From positions 1 to 27,460 of the IMG/VR virus record IMGVR_UViG_3300009684_000141: 27,460 nt of DNA; one strand, 5' to 3'. Below are positions 3,021 through 18,977 of the stretch, piece by piece. The notes beneath the pieces were generated by a model. The model searched no databases. It worked only from the letters and a program-made list of their open reading frames with translations, and was not told the origin of the DNA. Origin of the DNA: a virus. The number at the start of each line of letters is the position of its first letter. The stretch's first letter is position 1. Made by a program: the position numbers and the translations under genes.

Positions 3021-3063
3021 ATGGGGGCTGAGAAAGCTAGACAAAACTCAGCCCCCATTTTTT
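3021..3063 (+). terminator. Strong intrinsic terminator or attenuator abutting the ribosome binding site of the next gene
   Basis: A perfect 12-bp GC-rich stem ATGGGGGCTGAG/CTCAGCCCCCAT (3021-3032 and 3047-3058) has a 14-base loop and a run of six T. The Shine-Dalgarno AGGAG of the next gene begins at 3064, one base beyond the T run. No promoter can fit between this hairpin and that gene, so the gene must be expressed by readthrough, anti-termination or RNA processing. Confidence 0.85.
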
Positions 3064-3074
3064 AGGAGAAAACA

Positions 3075-4046: not shown

Positions 4047-5489
4047 GTGGCAGATATTATCATCCATAAAATATCAGAGGTATATGTTAAAGTAATCTGC
4101 GATGGCGGTATTGCTTATCAAATGTCTGAACATTTTACATTTATGATACCAAACGCTAAGTTTCACCCAAAAGTAAAAGCTAAGGTATGGGATGGTAAGA
4201 TTAGATTATTCAATCTCGGTAACAGAACAATTTATACTGGTCTTGTGCCTAAGATCGAAGAATGGGCAAAGAACAACGAATATACAATAGAATACTCTGG
4301 AGACTTTGGTAACAAAGAATTTTCAGTAAAAGAAGCTAGCGATTATATCAAAAAGCTAAACCCAACTATGACACCACACGAACATCAGATTAAAGCATTC
4401 ATTCATTGTGTTCGTAATCAAAAAGCTGTACTGATTTCTCCTACTGCTTCTGGCAAATCATTCATCATTTATATGCTAACTAGGTATTTTGATAGGAAGA
4501 CACTTATCATTGTTCCTACTACTGCTCTAGTAAAACAAATGTCAACAGACTTTTTGGAATATGGCTATGACGAACCTATTCACCAAATTATGTCTGGAAA
4601 AGAAAAACAAACTGATGAACTTGTAACCGTATCAACATGGCAGTCAATCTATAAGATGCCAAAAGAATGGTTCGATCAATATGAGATGGTTGTGGTCGAT
4701 GAAACTCACCATGCTAAATCTAAATCGTTTGTTGATATTTTATCTAAAATGACAAAGTGCAAATACAGGTTTGGTCTTACTGGAACTTTGGATGGAATTG
4801 AAGTTAACGAACTTGTTCTAGAGGGACTTCTTGGACCTGTCAAGAGGGTTATAAAAACATCAGAGTTGATGGAAAAGAACTTAGTGTCTAAGCTAAACAT
4901 TAAGTCTCTTATACTCAGATATCCAGATGAAATATGCAAGCTAAATAAGAATATGCTATACAAAGATGAAATTCATTTTCTAGTTACAAACGCAAAAAGA
5001 AATATATTCATCAGAAATCTAGCACTGTCTCTTACAAGTAACACTCTTGTATTATATCAGTTTGTTGAAAAACACGGTAAGCCACTATACGAAGATATTG
5101 CTAAGGCTGCTCCAAATAGAAAAGTATTTTTCATATCTGGTGATATTGATGCTGATGTTAGAGAAGAAGTTAGACGAATCACTGAGACCCAAACTGATGC
5201 TATCATTGTAGCTAGTTATGGTACATTTTCAACAGGTACTAATATTAAGAACCTAAATAATATTATATTCGCTTCTCCTAGTAAATCTAAAATTAGAACA
5301 TTACAATCTATTGGTCGTGGTCTAAGATTATTCGAAGGTAAAGCTACTGCTACTCTTTATGATATAGCCGATGATATGTCTTGGAAAACTCACAAGAACC
5401 ATACGCTAAATCATTTACAAGAACGTCTTAAGATATATGCTGCTGAAAACTTTGATTATAAAATTTATAGGATAAATATAGACCAATGA
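4047..5489 (+). CDS. uvsW: UvsW superfamily-2 helicase
   Basis: The 480-residue protein starts at GTG 4047, preceded by CGGGGA. It shows SF2 helicase motifs in order: Walker A SPTASGKS (131-138), DETH box (218-221), motif III GLTGTLD (243-249) and motif VI QSIGRGLR (420-427). The N-terminal 100 residues, including FHPKVKAKVWDGKIRLF, correspond to the UvsW DNA-recognition domain. T4 UvsW unwinds R-loops and branched recombination intermediates, shutting off origin-dependent replication late in infection. It follows uvsY by one base, so the two are probably co-translated, and it overlaps the next gene by four bases. Confidence 0.95.
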   Translation: MADIIIHKISEVYVKVICDGGIAYQMSEHFTFMIPNAKFHPKVKAKVWDGKIRLFNLGNRTIYTGLVPKIEEWAKNNEYTIEYSGDFGNKEFSVKEASDYIKKLNPTMTPHEHQIKAFIHCVRNQKAVLISPTASGKSFIIYMLTRYFDRKTLIIVPTTALVKQMSTDFLEYGYDEPIHQIMSGKEKQTDELVTVSTWQSIYKMPKEWFDQYEMVVVDETHHAKSKSFVDILSKMTKCKYRFGLTGTLDGIEVNELVLEGLLGPVKRVIKTSELMEKNLVSKLNIKSLILRYPDEICKLNKNMLYKDEIHFLVTNAKRNIFIRNLALSLTSNTLVLYQFVEKHGKPLYEDIAKAAPNRKVFFISGDIDADVREEVRRITETQTDAIIVASYGTFSTGTNIKNLNNIIFASPSKSKIRTLQSIGRGLRLFEGKATATLYDIADDMSWKTHKNHTLNHLQERLKIYAAENFDYKIYRINIDQ

Positions 5490-10682: not shown

Positions 10683-11852
10683 ATGAAAACATTTCTCGAT
10701 TTTTATGAAGATAAGGTTAAGGAACCAACTGGCGATCTAAAGACTGCTTGTTGGAAAGGTTATACTGCTGTAGGAACAAAAAAGAAAAACGGTAGAACTG
10801 TTCCAAATTGTGTTCCTGTTTCGGAGGCTGAAGATTATATTTTTGGTAATTCTCAGAAGCCAACTGCCTATAGTGATGTAAACCCATCTGTAGGTAGTGC
10901 AACTTCTAAGAAATTATACAACACAGATCAAGCAAATCCAAATTCGCGTCCAAAGAATAAGAAGCCTCTAAATAAAGTTGTGCAACCACCTAAAATAACA
11001 AACTCTCCTAATCAACAAGAAATGCCACGAACTCATAATGACTTGGATCGCAAGCATCCTATGGTTCCAAAGAAACCAGTCGTCGAAGAAGTTCTAAATC
11101 TTGAAGAAACAAACTTTTCTAATCGTGCAGTTAGCATTTATCCTCACGGTCAAGGTTCTGATGTAGGCAGTCGTGTCCCAACTAGCAAACCCACACAGAT
11201 ATCAACCTCTTCAGCCGTAGGAAATGAACAACATAAAAATAGATCGTTCTTTAATAGTCCTGAAAAAAAGGATTATATCGAAGGAATGGTTAATAATATA
11301 AAATCTGGAAAAACTCTTCCTCCAGTAATGTCAACTCCACATCCTGCTAATCCTTCAAAGAATATTGTAGTTGATGGAAATCATAGAGCATTTGCTCATA
11401 AAGAAGCTGGAGCATCTCATATTCCTGCTGTTCATGTAAGCCACGATAATATCCATATAGCTTCTCATGATTACGAGCATCCAGATCAATCATTTCATCC
11501 ACTATCTTCTTTTAAATCAAAAGATGGTACATATGATATGCATAAGCGTAGACCACAACTAGGCGGAAAACCTCTTAAACACTATTTTACTGAAGAAGTT
11601 CTAACTGAACGTGGAGCAGATTCAAAAGGATATAAGCGTCCCACTGAACAAGGTGCTGGATTGACTGCTAAGGGAGCTAAACACTTTGGTGTTCAAACTG
11701 CCGTTACTGGTAAAGTTAAAGCAGGGTCTAAAGCAGCTAAAAGACGCAAATCATTTTGTGCCAGAATGTCTGGTATGAAAGGTCCTATGAAGGACGAGAA
11801 GGGTAGACCAACCCGCAAGGCAATGTCACTACGCAGATGGAGATGCAGATAA
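10683..11852 (+). CDS. Late modular protein: capsid-targeting-like leader, CWKGY module, ParB-like domain, SFCARM module
   Basis: The 389-residue protein starts MKTFLDFYED, similar to the MKTYQEFIAE leader of T4 internal proteins. Module 1 (about 17-46) is GDLKTACWKGYTAVGTKKKNG...VPNCVP, a short Cys-containing motif seen in T4-like phage proteins. A Pro/Asn-rich linker follows. Module 2 (about 195-262) holds IKSGKTLPPV...IVVDGNHRAFAHKEAG, the ParB/sulfiredoxin-like fold with its DGNHR motif. Module 3 (about 310-389) is basic and Cys-containing, with RRKSFCARMSGMKGPMKDEK and a terminal LRRWRCR (DUF6321-like). LEE (140-142) and LTE (307-309) fall between modules and fit the gp21 (L/I)xE cleavage rule. 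Function is unknown. It may be a head-packaged DNA-binding or nuclease effector. Confidence 0.65.
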   Translation: MKTFLDFYEDKVKEPTGDLKTACWKGYTAVGTKKKNGRTVPNCVPVSEAEDYIFGNSQKPTAYSDVNPSVGSATSKKLYNTDQANPNSRPKNKKPLNKVVQPPKITNSPNQQEMPRTHNDLDRKHPMVPKKPVVEEVLNLEETNFSNRAVSIYPHGQGSDVGSRVPTSKPTQISTSSAVGNEQHKNRSFFNSPEKKDYIEGMVNNIKSGKTLPPVMSTPHPANPSKNIVVDGNHRAFAHKEAGASHIPAVHVSHDNIHIASHDYEHPDQSFHPLSSFKSKDGTYDMHKRRPQLGGKPLKHYFTEEVLTERGADSKGYKRPTEQGAGLTAKGAKHFGVQTAVTGKVKAGSKAAKRRKSFCARMSGMKGPMKDEKGRPTRKAMSLRRWRCR

Positions 11853-12349
11853 TGTTAACCTTTAAAGAATTTATTGTTGAAGGTAATCCTTTAGCCCGAT
11901 TAAATGCTACTAAGGGAGAAGGTCGTGCCTTTTCTGTTATATCTGCTGAACGCGAAGGATTGCCAAAAGCAGAAAACGAAAGAAGAACCGCAGAATTAAA
12001 AAAGAAGTTAACTGCTCAAGGTTACGGACATAGACGCGCAATAGGACACTGGGAAGGTGGAAAAGAAAACTCCTTACTAGTACAAGCAAAAAATACTGGT
12101 ACAAAATCTGCTGGTAAACTAAGATATGATATGAACCGTCATGGTAAAACATATGGACAAGATTCGGTATTGCATCACGATGCTAGTGGAGCAAGAGTAG
12201 AAGGAACTAACAAAACAGGTGATCCTGGTTTTAGAAAAACTCAAAAATTAGGCAGAGTAGCTTATAATAGACCAGATGCCCCATTCCAAACAGAACTACG
12301 CCCAAGTAAAAGAAAAGCTAACGCTAGATTTACTACAACGAAAGACTAA
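11852..12349 (+). CDS. Late protein with capsid-targeting-like leader (DUF3293-like core)
   Basis: I start it at ATG 11852, which overlaps the previous TAA by one base and has TGGAG 9 bases upstream; an in-frame ATG at 11837 has no Shine-Dalgarno. The 165-residue product begins MLTFKEFIVEGN. This is close to the T4 IP leader MKTYQEFIAE, with IVE|G as a likely gp21 cleavage point. The body has AFSVISAEREG, ENERRTAELKKKLTAQGYG, a LLVQAKN strand and YGQDSVLHHDASGARVEGTN, then a basic C-terminus. This layout resembles DUF3293-like phage proteins (N...L...L...GY; QDSVL). The biochemical role is unknown. It is coupled to the previous gene. Confidence 0.62.
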   Translation: MLTFKEFIVEGNPLARLNATKGEGRAFSVISAEREGLPKAENERRTAELKKKLTAQGYGHRRAIGHWEGGKENSLLVQAKNTGTKSAGKLRYDMNRHGKTYGQDSVLHHDASGARVEGTNKTGDPGFRKTQKLGRVAYNRPDAPFQTELRPSKRKANARFTTTKD

Positions 12350-14222: not shown

Positions 14223-15872
14223 TTATGAGATGATATAATGAGGCGGTGTTGAAAATTCAGCCACAAACTTAGTTCTTTTTAATTGAATTGTTTCCTGAAT
14301 AATATTCTTCATTCCCATATAATCATCCACTGCATATAGCTTATGTGCTTTCTTAGTGATAGCACCAAATATAGTCATGAACATTCTTTGTTTAAAAAAC
14401 AAATCTGCTCCCCGACCACCCATATACATAAAAAATGACAATTGAGCATGGGCATAATGGTCTGCGATATTAGATTCGTTTGTATTATTTGGACCAGAAT
14501 AAGGTTTTACTTTATTTCTTATTTCATTTATGACAGAAAGCATATACTCACTGTATAGAGAAATTGTTCCTTTAAATTCTGTTTCGGTTAATTTAGCATA
14601 CTTGTCAAAGAATTTTTTTGTCGTTTCATTTTTCTTTTTTAAATATAATATTTCTTGTGTTGCTAAATCTCGTCTAGCTGCGGTATATTCTGTAGCTACT
14701 TTTTTAAATTCTTCAGGATTTTCTTTCTTAAATTTAGCACACATCTTATCAAAAACTGCAAGCCTATAGTTTACTACTTTTGAAATTACTGCCTTGTACT
14801 GTGGATATTTCATTGCAAAAGTTTCAAATGTAGTAATACCAATTCCTCCGACCCATTGTGTGTCTTGGTATTGTTTTGAAGATGCATCAAACTGACCATT
14901 CCACCCAGCACTGTGTCCTTGAGCAAACAGGTTAAAATTTAAATTATATGTTGACATAGGTTTTTGTGTTTCTGGATCAATTAAATTCTTATAATTTAAT
15001 GATACTGGAAATACCCAGTTAAGAACATCACCATTAGAAAATTTATCAAAATTTATATGTACAACTTTATTAATATATTCTCTTGTTTTAGATGGGTCAT
15101 GTAATATGATAGCAAGAAATTTTGTGTAGGGATCAATATCATCAGATGCATCTTTTCCGCTTGCAAACATAACTTTTTTTATGCTTATATTTGATTTTAC
15201 TCCTGTTGGTAACTTTAAAGATATAGGAAAAATTTCCCCGCTATCCATGTACCTTCCGATAACATTTTTATAATTGTTACCGCCAGATGCTGCATTTTTT
15301 ATAATTGTTATTGGGTCTGTGAAATATTTTATAAAGTTGGTTTCGATTTTGGTCATTGATGATTTTTTAACAAATATAACATCAATAGCAGATAAAACAT
15401 CGCTTTTATATGAGATATTCATTGCGCTTCTTATATTATCTAGAGATTTGTTTTTCAATAGAATGAAAAATGGGTCTTTCTGATTTAAAAACTTATATGA
15501 TGATGTTGCGCCATTTAATCTATTTGAACTAATAAAAGTTTTAGCAACGTTATATACTTTCTTAGCAAGAGAGCTATATGTTTCTTTTTTAGTTTTTTCA
15601 GTTTCTCCTACTGTGAACCCTTTTCTAATAACTTGTCCATTCATAGGAAACCTTTTAGATAAGCAATCGGTTGCTTTTATTCTATTAATAACCTCACCTG
15701 GTTTCGTCGTTGCTGCTGTAGCTTCGTTAGAAAACATAGTAAAGAAATTAATATCGTGTTTTGGTCCAATATTAGGAAAAGCGGCAAAGTAAGCAAAAGC
15801 CAAGCATTGAGCCAGTTCTTTTAGTTCTGCGGCTTTCGCGTCTTCTGGTTCGCCATAATCTAGTTCTGCCAT
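14223..15872 (-). CDS. Large hypothetical protein, the only minus-strand gene
   Basis: This 549-residue protein reads opposite to every other gene. Its ATG (complement of 15870-15872) has AAGGG upstream. I recognise no family. It begins MAELDYGEPEDAKAAELKEL, then AFAYFAAFPNIGPKHDINFF. Later blocks include LIDPETQKPMSTYNLNF and FAQGHSAGWNGQFD. A charged helical segment (about 355-430) and IADHYAHAQLSFFMYMGGRG follow. No signal peptide or clear transmembrane segment is visible. The base composition is even more AT-rich than its neighbours, suggesting separate acquisition. Upstream are two tandem CTAAATAA motifs on its strand, so late expression is likely. The stop lies 4 bases from the tRNA-Thr CCA, so transcripts may run antisense through both tRNAs. 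It could be a virion or cargo protein. Confidence 0.75.
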   Translation of the reverse strand: MAELDYGEPEDAKAAELKELAQCLAFAYFAAFPNIGPKHDINFFTMFSNEATAATTKPGEVINRIKATDCLSKRFPMNGQVIRKGFTVGETEKTKKETYSSLAKKVYNVAKTFISSNRLNGATSSYKFLNQKDPFFILLKNKSLDNIRSAMNISYKSDVLSAIDVIFVKKSSMTKIETNFIKYFTDPITIIKNAASGGNNYKNVIGRYMDSGEIFPISLKLPTGVKSNISIKKVMFASGKDASDDIDPYTKFLAIILHDPSKTREYINKVVHINFDKFSNGDVLNWVFPVSLNYKNLIDPETQKPMSTYNLNFNLFAQGHSAGWNGQFDASSKQYQDTQWVGGIGITTFETFAMKYPQYKAVISKVVNYRLAVFDKMCAKFKKENPEEFKKVATEYTAARRDLATQEILYLKKKNETTKKFFDKYAKLTETEFKGTISLYSEYMLSVINEIRNKVKPYSGPNNTNESNIADHYAHAQLSFFMYMGGRGADLFFKQRMFMTIFGAITKKAHKLYAVDDYMGMKNIIQETIQLKRTKFVAEFSTPPHYIIS

Positions 15873-17201: not shown

Positions 17202-17501
17202 ATGGTATATGGTACAGAAGTAAATAAACTTGTGCGTAAAACTGATCCACAAACAAGCAAAGATTCTGCGAATAAAGTAAATTCAACATTTCTTGAAGAG
17301 ATGGTACATAAAGCAATCAAAGAATATGGCGAAATTGGTTGTGTTGCCGACGATCTTCTTGATAAGTTTTCTGATTTCCCATACTCTAGTATCACTGCAC
17401 GTTTTGCAGCATTAGAAAGAAAGGGATATATTCAATGCGGACCAGAAAAGAGAGCAGGTCGTAGTAATCGTGGTCAGAGAGTTATGCGTAACTTAATATA
17501 A
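17202..17501 (+). CDS. Small winged-helix DNA-binding-like protein
   Basis: I start at ATG 17202, with GGAG a normal distance upstream, rather than ATG 17190, which has none. The 99-residue product begins MVYGTEVNKLVRKTDPQTSK. The RKTDPQTSKDSA segment opens a common phage family of small winged-helix proteins. The remainder, with DDLLDKF, SITARFAALERKGYI and a basic C-terminus, fits a winged helix. Target unknown. It ends inside the late promoter of the tRNA-Ser. Confidence 0.7.
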   Translation: MVYGTEVNKLVRKTDPQTSKDSANKVNSTFLEEMVHKAIKEYGEIGCVADDLLDKFSDFPYSSITARFAALERKGYIQCGPEKRAGRSNRGQRVMRNLI

Positions 17502-17504
17502 ATA
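17497..17504 (+). promoter_or_regulatory. Late promoter TATAAATA before tRNA-Ser
   Basis: An exact TATAAATA match overlapping the preceding stop codon and ending 10 bases before the tRNA-Ser. Suggests that the tRNA and the structured RNA after it are made late. Confidence 0.65.
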
Positions 17505-17514
17505 AAAAGCACAA

Positions 17515-17604
17515 GGAGGAATGTCCGAGCGGTTTAAGGAACTAGTCTTGAAAACTAGCGTGGGTGAGAGTCCACCGTGGGTTCGAATCCCACTCCCTCC
17601 TCCA
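17515..17604 (+). tRNA. tRNA-Ser (anticodon TGA)
   Basis: Acceptor GGAGGAA with TCCCTCC has one A-C mismatch at the sixth pair. The anticodon arm CTAGT-CTTGAAA-ACTAG gives TGA (reads TCA). The long variable arm GTGGGTGAGAGTCCACC and T arm GTGGG-TTCGAAT-CCCAC are those of a class II tRNA. CCA is encoded. The discriminator is T where serine tRNAs normally have G. Confidence 0.88.
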
Positions 17605-17612
17605 CTAATTAT

Positions 17613-17733
17613 CGGCGGAACGCTGCATGGGCAGGGCGAGGAAGGTCCAACTTCCTTAATAGGTGAAGGCGGATGGGAGCGATCCCTGAGAAGCATAAAC
17701 CAAGTCTGGTCGGGTTCGAATCCTGTGCCGCCG
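17613..17733 (+). ncRNA. Unclassified structured RNA with a tRNA-like 3' end
   Basis: A 121-base, locally GC-rich segment is bracketed by CGGCGG (17613) and CCGCCG (17728-17733). Its 3' part carries a canonical T-arm loop (GGG-TTCGAAT-CCT) just before the closing stem, then TCA instead of CCA. Internal hairpins are CTGC/GCAG (17623), AGGAAG/CTTCCT (17639-17656), GGGA/TCCC (17675) and ACCA/TGGT (17699-17710). The length and missing D and anticodon arms exclude an ordinary tRNA. No credible coding frame. T4 has two stable RNAs of unknown function (C and D) in its tRNA cluster, an analogous position. Confidence 0.5.
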
Positions 17734-17742
17734 TCAACTTTT

Positions 17743-17784
17743 AATCCCTCATAAATAACTTAACTGTTTTTATGAGGGATTTTT
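17743..17784 (+). promoter_or_regulatory. Hairpin with embedded late promoter that hides the next ribosome binding site; also terminator-like
   Basis: A perfect 13-bp stem (AATCCCTCATAAA at 17743-17755, TTTATGAGGGATT at 17769-17781) has a 13-base loop and ends in T. CATAAATA (17750-17757) spans the 5' arm and loop. GAGGGA in the 3' arm is the Shine-Dalgarno of the gene at 17786. RNA starting from the internal promoter near 17763 would lack the 5' arm and expose the site. The T4 genes e and soc are controlled in this manner. Confidence 0.72.
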
Positions 17785-17785
17785 A

Positions 17786-18277
17786 ATGTTAAGTTTTATA
17801 GAATTTTTAGAAGAACGTAAAGTTGATCCTGCTAAATTGGCTAACCGTGTTGCTCGTAGATACGGCAGTAAGAGAACAAATTACGGACCTTGGATGAATG
17901 CTAAACAAGGCGATGTTAAAAAAGGTGGGCATATTCCTCTTAGTACATATGATCGTAAGAAGGTCAGGTCTATGGAGGACAGTTATTATAAGAGAGTGTC
18001 CTCACACCCAAAAGGCGAGATAGGATATGCTCGTGAAAGAGGTTCAAAACCTTTGGTAAAGATGTCTATTAAAAGCCTTCGCGCTACACAACCTTTTAAT
18101 AGAACAAATGACCCAGAAAAACTAAAAGATAAAATAGCCGATACTAGTCCTCAGAATATTCATGTTGTTACTCATAACGGTGAGCATTATGTGGCTGATG
18201 GACATCATGCTGTAATGGCAGCTCATCTTCGTGGTGACACTCATGTTAATGTCAAGCATACAAACCTTGACGAATAG
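17786..18277 (+). CDS. ParB/sulfiredoxin-like late protein with capsid-targeting-like leader
   Basis: The 163-residue protein begins MLSFIEFLEERK, resembling the T4 internal-protein leader MKTYQEFIAE, with LEE|R as a possible gp21 site. A basic middle part follows (about 11-90). Residues 92-160 are a ParB/sulfiredoxin-like domain: SLRATQPFNR, PEKLKDKIAD, NIHVVTHNGEHYVADGHHAV and a terminal VNVKHTNLDE. DGHH (138-141) is the family's nucleotide-handling motif. Relatives include ParB CTPase/nuclease domains; the reaction here is unknown. The start overlaps the control hairpin described above, so translation should be restricted to late time. Confidence 0.7.
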   Translation: MLSFIEFLEERKVDPAKLANRVARRYGSKRTNYGPWMNAKQGDVKKGGHIPLSTYDRKKVRSMEDSYYKRVSSHPKGEIGYARERGSKPLVKMSIKSLRATQPFNRTNDPEKLKDKIADTSPQNIHVVTHNGEHYVADGHHAVMAAHLRGDTHVNVKHTNLDE

Positions 18278-18917: not shown

Positions 18918-18949
18918 CTGTTTCTTTGTATAAGAAGTATGTTACCCAG

Positions 18950-18977
18950 TAATCTCCACTGAGGAGATTATGTTTTT
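18950..18977 (+). terminator. Weak hairpin before the clamp loader operon
   Basis: TAATCTCC (18950-18957) pairs with GGAGATTA (18963-18970) around a 5-base loop, followed by TGTTTTT. It could be a weak terminator or an attenuator for gp44. No separate promoter is visible between it and gene 44. Confidence 0.45.

Follow-up and report, generated by a model that had tools for sequence, protein, structure and literature searches.

The 163-codon gene and the hairpin that precedes it

The IMG/VR sequence analysed here, called the window (the whole stretch of 27,460 bases), was a fragment of a T4-like phage in which gp22, gp23, recombination and clamp-loader genes were present. Its gp23 was 60-69% identical to gp23 of Stenotrophomonas phage DLP6, Caulobacter phage Cr30 and Sinorhizobium phages, a range into which marine methylophages and pelagiphages also fell, and contig L009 belonged to the same phage (2 differences in 8.5 kb). 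A 549-codon ORF, the only long one on the minus strand at 14223-15872, had no Pfam or PHROG match. The region of interest ran from a tRNA-Ser and a second RNA (17515-17738) through a hairpin, AATCCCTCATAAA-taacttaactgtt-TTTATGAGGGATT, and TTTAATG into a 163-codon gene starting at 17786:

17497-17504, + strand: TATAAATA, putative late promoter of the tRNA-Ser/RNA unit (exact T4 late consensus)
17515-17604, + strand: tRNA-Ser, TGA anticodon (ARAGORN; Rfam RF00005, 52.1 bits)
17608-17738, + strand: second RNA with a tRNA-like T arm, GGGTTCGAATCC, stopping a few bases (about 5 nt) short of the hairpin
17743-17755, + strand: 5' arm of the hairpin (perfect inverted repeat)
17750-17757, + strand: CATAAATA, putative late (gp55-type) promoter (same motif class as before gp22 and gp23)
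17763, + strand: predicted late transcription start, an A (from T4 spacing, consensus at -13 to -6)
17769-17781, + strand: 3' arm of the hairpin, holding the Shine-Dalgarno (SD) sequence (inverted repeat and folds)
17774-17779, + strand: SD GAGGGA (sequence; ATG 17786 lies 6 nt downstream)
17780-17784, + strand: T5 run, tail of the terminator-like hairpin (sequence; layout common to T4-like relatives)
17786-18277, + strand: gene putatively controlled by the hairpin, 163-aa protein (ORF; weak ParB-like similarity)

The two arms of the hairpin were complementary at 13 of 13 positions around a 13-nt loop (39 nt altogether), and this was the longest of the perfect short-loop hairpins in the window; resampling at the same dinucleotide frequencies gave 0.017 hairpins of at least 13 bp per window (1 in 60 resamplings). 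No second SD-like sequence was found between GAGGGA and ATG 17786, and the T5 run, followed by AA, ended one base ahead of this ATG. Six bases of CATAAATA lay in the 5' arm and two in the loop. The initial annotation had placed the SD inside a perfect 13-bp stem and a promoter motif in the 5' arm and loop, and both descriptions proved accurate. The hairpin's sub-threshold Rfam matches, to miRNA and CRISPR repeat models, were judged to be due to chance. The loop segment AACTTAAC (17757-17764) had 8-nt complementarity to the gene's first codons, GTTAAGTT (17788-17795), a pairing for which 6 nt would need to bridge the 13-bp stem.

The hairpin alone had a predicted minimum free energy of -18.2 kcal/mol (region z-score -3.6; 1 of 200 shuffles folded equally well). 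The SD of RNAs coming from upstream was predicted to be held in a stable helix, with a mean unpaired probability of about 0.01 for starts between 17605 and 17740. For an RNA starting at 17763 a weak alternative structure was predicted around the SD, with a probability of about 1e-3 for a fully free SD. The predicted energy for opening the SD-to-ATG segment was 17.1-17.5 kcal/mol in the long RNAs vs. 6.3 kcal/mol for starts at 17763-17764.

The T4 late consensus occupies positions -13 to -6 relative to the transcription start (PMC1524935) and, since CATAAATA corresponds to this consensus, the start would be expected at A17763. Similar motifs preceded gp22 (CATAAATA, 238) and gp23 (TATAAATA, 1466), each followed soon by an SD and a start codon, and TCTAAATA preceded another weakly ParB-like gene at 10683. 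Across the window, ATAAATA showed no enrichment (10 sites vs. 11.9 expected), but all 10 sites were on the coding strand; TAAATA was strand-biased (26 on the plus strand vs. 5 on the minus strand). Sigma70-like matches upstream were at chance level, and the upstream genes and the tRNA were co-directional with the 17786 gene.

The tRNA-Ser followed its TATAAATA by 10 nt. The ends of the second RNA paired with each other (GGCGG/CCGCC), and 123 of 123 nt were identical in a contig of a different phage (L011, 1-126, minus strand) whose flanks had no identity to the window, both copies standing behind a TATAAATA. This RNA had no Rfam family and no phage or plasmid match; its 20-mer matches in bacterial genomes were short chance matches only.

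The 163-aa protein had been labelled ParB-like, a name for which the basis is a Pfam match below threshold (ParBc_2, E 0.023). It had no match among phage isolates and none at threshold in Pfam or PHROGs, and a profile scan gave no homologue beyond those already found. The only divergent homologue, L010 (54% identical), was preceded directly by TATAAATA, without a hairpin and without upstream RNA genes; the device is therefore not fixed to the 17786 gene, and the idea of a hairpin switch as a fixture of this gene did not survive the comparison. Gene e of Aeh1, 44RR and others likewise lacks the structure (PMC3014915), so that retention of the hairpin in homologues does not define the class.

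Recurrence of the layout in T4-like phages

IMG/VR was scanned with two patterns, CCTCATAAATA..TTATGAGG and CCTTATAAATA..TTATAAGG. Many copies lay 4-12 nt ahead of a long ORF's start; with the second pattern this held for 51 of 87 copies. Pooling both patterns gave 34 distinct non-palindromic copies, including those before gp5, head-tail adaptor, tail and RuvC-like genes. At the ORF-adjacent non-palindromic sites, the outer pairs beyond the searched pattern were complementary at frequencies of 0.68, 0.59 and 0.62 for own arms vs. 0.53, 0.37 and 0.39 for swapped arms. About a dozen CCTTATAAATA matches were set apart as palindromic back-to-back late promoters between divergent genes, that is, hairpins without a switch. 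Six divergent gene pairs (L065, L069, L087, L099, L101 and L120) shared one palindromic leader each, in which both strands carried TATAAATA and both sides had an AAGG SD. Candidates before a radical-SAM-like gene (L018, L022 and L032) and the repeat family L015-L031, which were unclear as T4-like late leaders or lacked an ORF, were given no weight.

Among the matches listed in a stem-free scan (ATAAATA..GGGATTTTT..ATG), 28 [CT]ATAAATA sites had ORFs, and 8 of these, the 17786 locus included, had TCCC no more than 14 nt upstream; the rate in shuffles was 3.9%, and GGGA gave 1 of 103. Hairpins with an SD and a nested TAAATA gave 5 matches at 917 TAAATA sites in the window and eight isolates, vs. 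2 matches at 4321 sites for three control hexamers; T4 gene e and I-TevII were picked up as positive controls. The comparison of own with swapped arms inside single isolate genomes was not decisive, with few sites in each.

The composite including a T-run was found before RuvC-like resolvase genes (L017, L095 and L415), gp5 hub genes (L237, L286, L292, L335, L372 and L406), head-tail adaptor genes (L214 and L328) and tail genes (L044 and L098). The late motif was present in 25 of 77 readable gp5 loci, corresponding to 16 distinct leaders, and in 16 of 30 distinct RuvC-like resolvase leaders; many leaders of both families were without it, and the device, though common, is thus by no means universal. 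Own arms paired better than swapped arms in the gp5 leaders (-9.0 vs. -6.6 kcal/mol; 3 of 20000 permutations) and in the RuvC leaders (-11.1 vs. -6.9 kcal/mol; 3 of 20000), with seeds and near-identical copies left out and the remaining leaders of a family assumed to be independent.

The layout was constant and the stem sequences differed: CCCCTC/GAGGGG in L017 and CCCCTT/AAGGGG in L095, both before RuvC-like genes (phrog_159), were related by a compensating C-G to T-A change. The RuvC-like Holliday junction resolvase leaders L017, L095 and L415 (CCCCTCATAAATA..TATGAGGGGATTTTT-ATG) came close to the element of the window, but before a different gene, and other leaders of this family (L428, L433, L441 and L446) had no T-run, about half of the family being without any TAAATA. 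Among the resolvase leaders L413-L447, about half of the distinct ones carried TAAATA and about half of those had in addition a strong nested hairpin, whose helix in L441-L444 extended over the start codon. An isolated phage, Methylophilales phage Melnitz (MZ577097, about 76.3 kb), had the same order as the window, with a tRNA-Leu followed by a hairpin, T6 and a gp5 OB-domain gene. Its leader also carried TATAAATA in the loop and an AAGGGA SD in the 3' arm ahead of T6 and ATG, but differed from the window in its stem, which had 7 bp and an unlike sequence, and in the gene concerned.

Termination, SD masking and alternative readings

Control by a late promoter and an SD hairpin is on record for the T4 genes e, soc, 49 and I-TevI (PMC3014915, PMC2988022). 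There, a hairpin of the upstream RNA holds the SD in its 3' arm, and the DNA encoding the 5' arm contains the late promoter; the SD and the putative late promoter of the window are similarly placed. The late RNA of these T4 genes has no 5' arm, which is likewise predicted for late RNA from the window hairpin. T4 gene 49, a resolvase unrelated to the RuvC-like ones, is under the same type of control as the nested-hairpin resolvase leaders. In the T4 e and I-TevII leaders that were inspected, no T-run separated the SD from the start codon, whereas the window hairpin is terminator-like and follows a tRNA/RNA unit. By analogy, the e-type logic would be the known part of the arrangement, and the T-run, a putative terminator within the same hairpin, the added one. 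No description of this terminator version was found in the open-licence literature.

The stem, with G+C and an immediate T5, had the form of a Rho-independent terminator; it was not listed by the terminator scan because the loops in that scan were limited to at most 8. A run of T5-T7 between SD and ATG was found in most of the hairpins closely resembling 17743-17781, and for 14 of 20 distinct hairpins checked, a co-directional ORF or tRNA gene ended 6-43 nt ahead of the hairpin. It is credible from these sequence features that the 17743-17784 hairpin is also a terminator for the upstream tRNA-Ser/RNA unit. Two other terminator-like hairpins directly preceded genes in the window (3021-3058 and 18949-18971, before the 3075 and 18990 genes). 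As at 17786, the stem was followed by T5-T6 directly before the start codon but, unlike at 17786, the SD came after the T-run and was free, and no late motif lay inside; a terminator placed ahead of a gene therefore need not hide the SD. The first of these (3021-3074) consisted of a 12-bp hairpin and T6, with CTAAATA upstream at about 2958, and late RNA of the 3075 gene may have to pass the terminator.

The position of the 17743-17781 hairpin, about 5 nt past the second RNA and with T5 behind it, is also what would be expected if its main role were intrinsic termination or 3' stabilisation of the tRNA-Ser/RNA unit, its overlap with promoter and SD being due to short space and the hiding of the SD non-regulatory. 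The absence of both hairpin and upstream RNA genes from L010 and the other terminator-like hairpins adjoining gene starts in the window agree with this explanation, but we consider it unlikely, given that the SD is free at 3021-3058 and 18949-18971, and that a hidden SD and a nested promoter occur without any T-run in many related leaders, as in T4 e. Conversely, the leaders of T4 e and I-TevII work without a T-run, and the window hairpin, with just five T followed by AA, might be a translation switch of the pure T4 e type, the T-run being too weak for termination and the read-through RNA left untranslated. The recurrence of the T5-T7 version among unrelated stems, and the presence of a hairpin with a T-run after a tRNA gene both in Melnitz and in the window, make this a distinctly improbable account.

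Coincidence, in which case CATAAATA would have no promoter function at this site and the inverted repeat would be fortuitous, would fit the lack of ATAAATA enrichment in the window and the absence of the hairpin from L010. It is highly improbable: few perfect 13-bp hairpins are expected per window (0.017), late motifs precede gp22 and gp23, one is kept before L010, and other phages repeat the layout.

From the comparative data, the promoter with a hidden SD is supported as a design that recurs under selection among T4-like phages. The anatomy given in the initial annotation and its analogy to the T4 e/soc logic hold; its further proposal, combination with termination, gains support from the T-run and from the repeated occurrence of hairpins with a T-run, in Melnitz also behind a tRNA gene.

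A candidate boundary element for late expression

The stem, the SD position, the promoter motif, the T-run and the recurrence with unlike stems in related phages were directly seen. We consider it likely that they constitute one boundary element with three overlapping functions: the end of the upstream unit, an SD mask in read-through RNA, and a late promoter escaping both. In this mechanism, RNA from upstream (tRNA-Ser, the second RNA and earlier genes) would fold into the full hairpin, the stem and U5 would end much of it just ahead of the ATG, and in the read-through RNA the sole SD would stay paired, leading to poor translation. With an active phage late sigma factor (gp55 type), polymerase would start within the hairpin at about 17763, and the late RNA, without the 5' arm, would not terminate there, would expose its SD and would be translated. 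The late start site, the efficiency of termination and the size of the translation block are those that we infer from this arrangement; if termination were efficient, it would keep most upstream RNA from the gene, and translation control would therefore be a back-up.

The N terminus of the 163-aa protein, MLSFIEFLEE, resembles in our reading a T4 capsid-targeting propeptide (concept from PMC9026906), which would fit late expression; from this resemblance and the promoter, the protein is probably late or head-associated. Two other proteins of the window had N termini like capsid-targeting propeptides: that of 10683-11852 (MKTFLDFYEDK), with a ParB-like stretch (TIGR00180, E 9e-6), and that of 11837-12349 (MLTFKEFIVEG), matching S-AdoMet_lyase (PF23780).

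For T4-like phages more widely, we regard as evenly balanced the proposition that they carry a repeatedly re-evolved element with terminator, SD mask and late promoter in the same few dozen bases, so placed (behind a gene or tRNA unit and before Holliday junction resolvase, gp5 hub or head genes) that these genes are expressed only from RNA begun inside the element. Control of the T4 gene e type, known for a handful of genes, would thus reach further, taking in uncultured T4-like phages as well as genes for resolvase, hub and adaptor proteins; the layout would offer a simple rule for spotting late-only genes by sequence alone, and would describe a very small insulated late-expression element.
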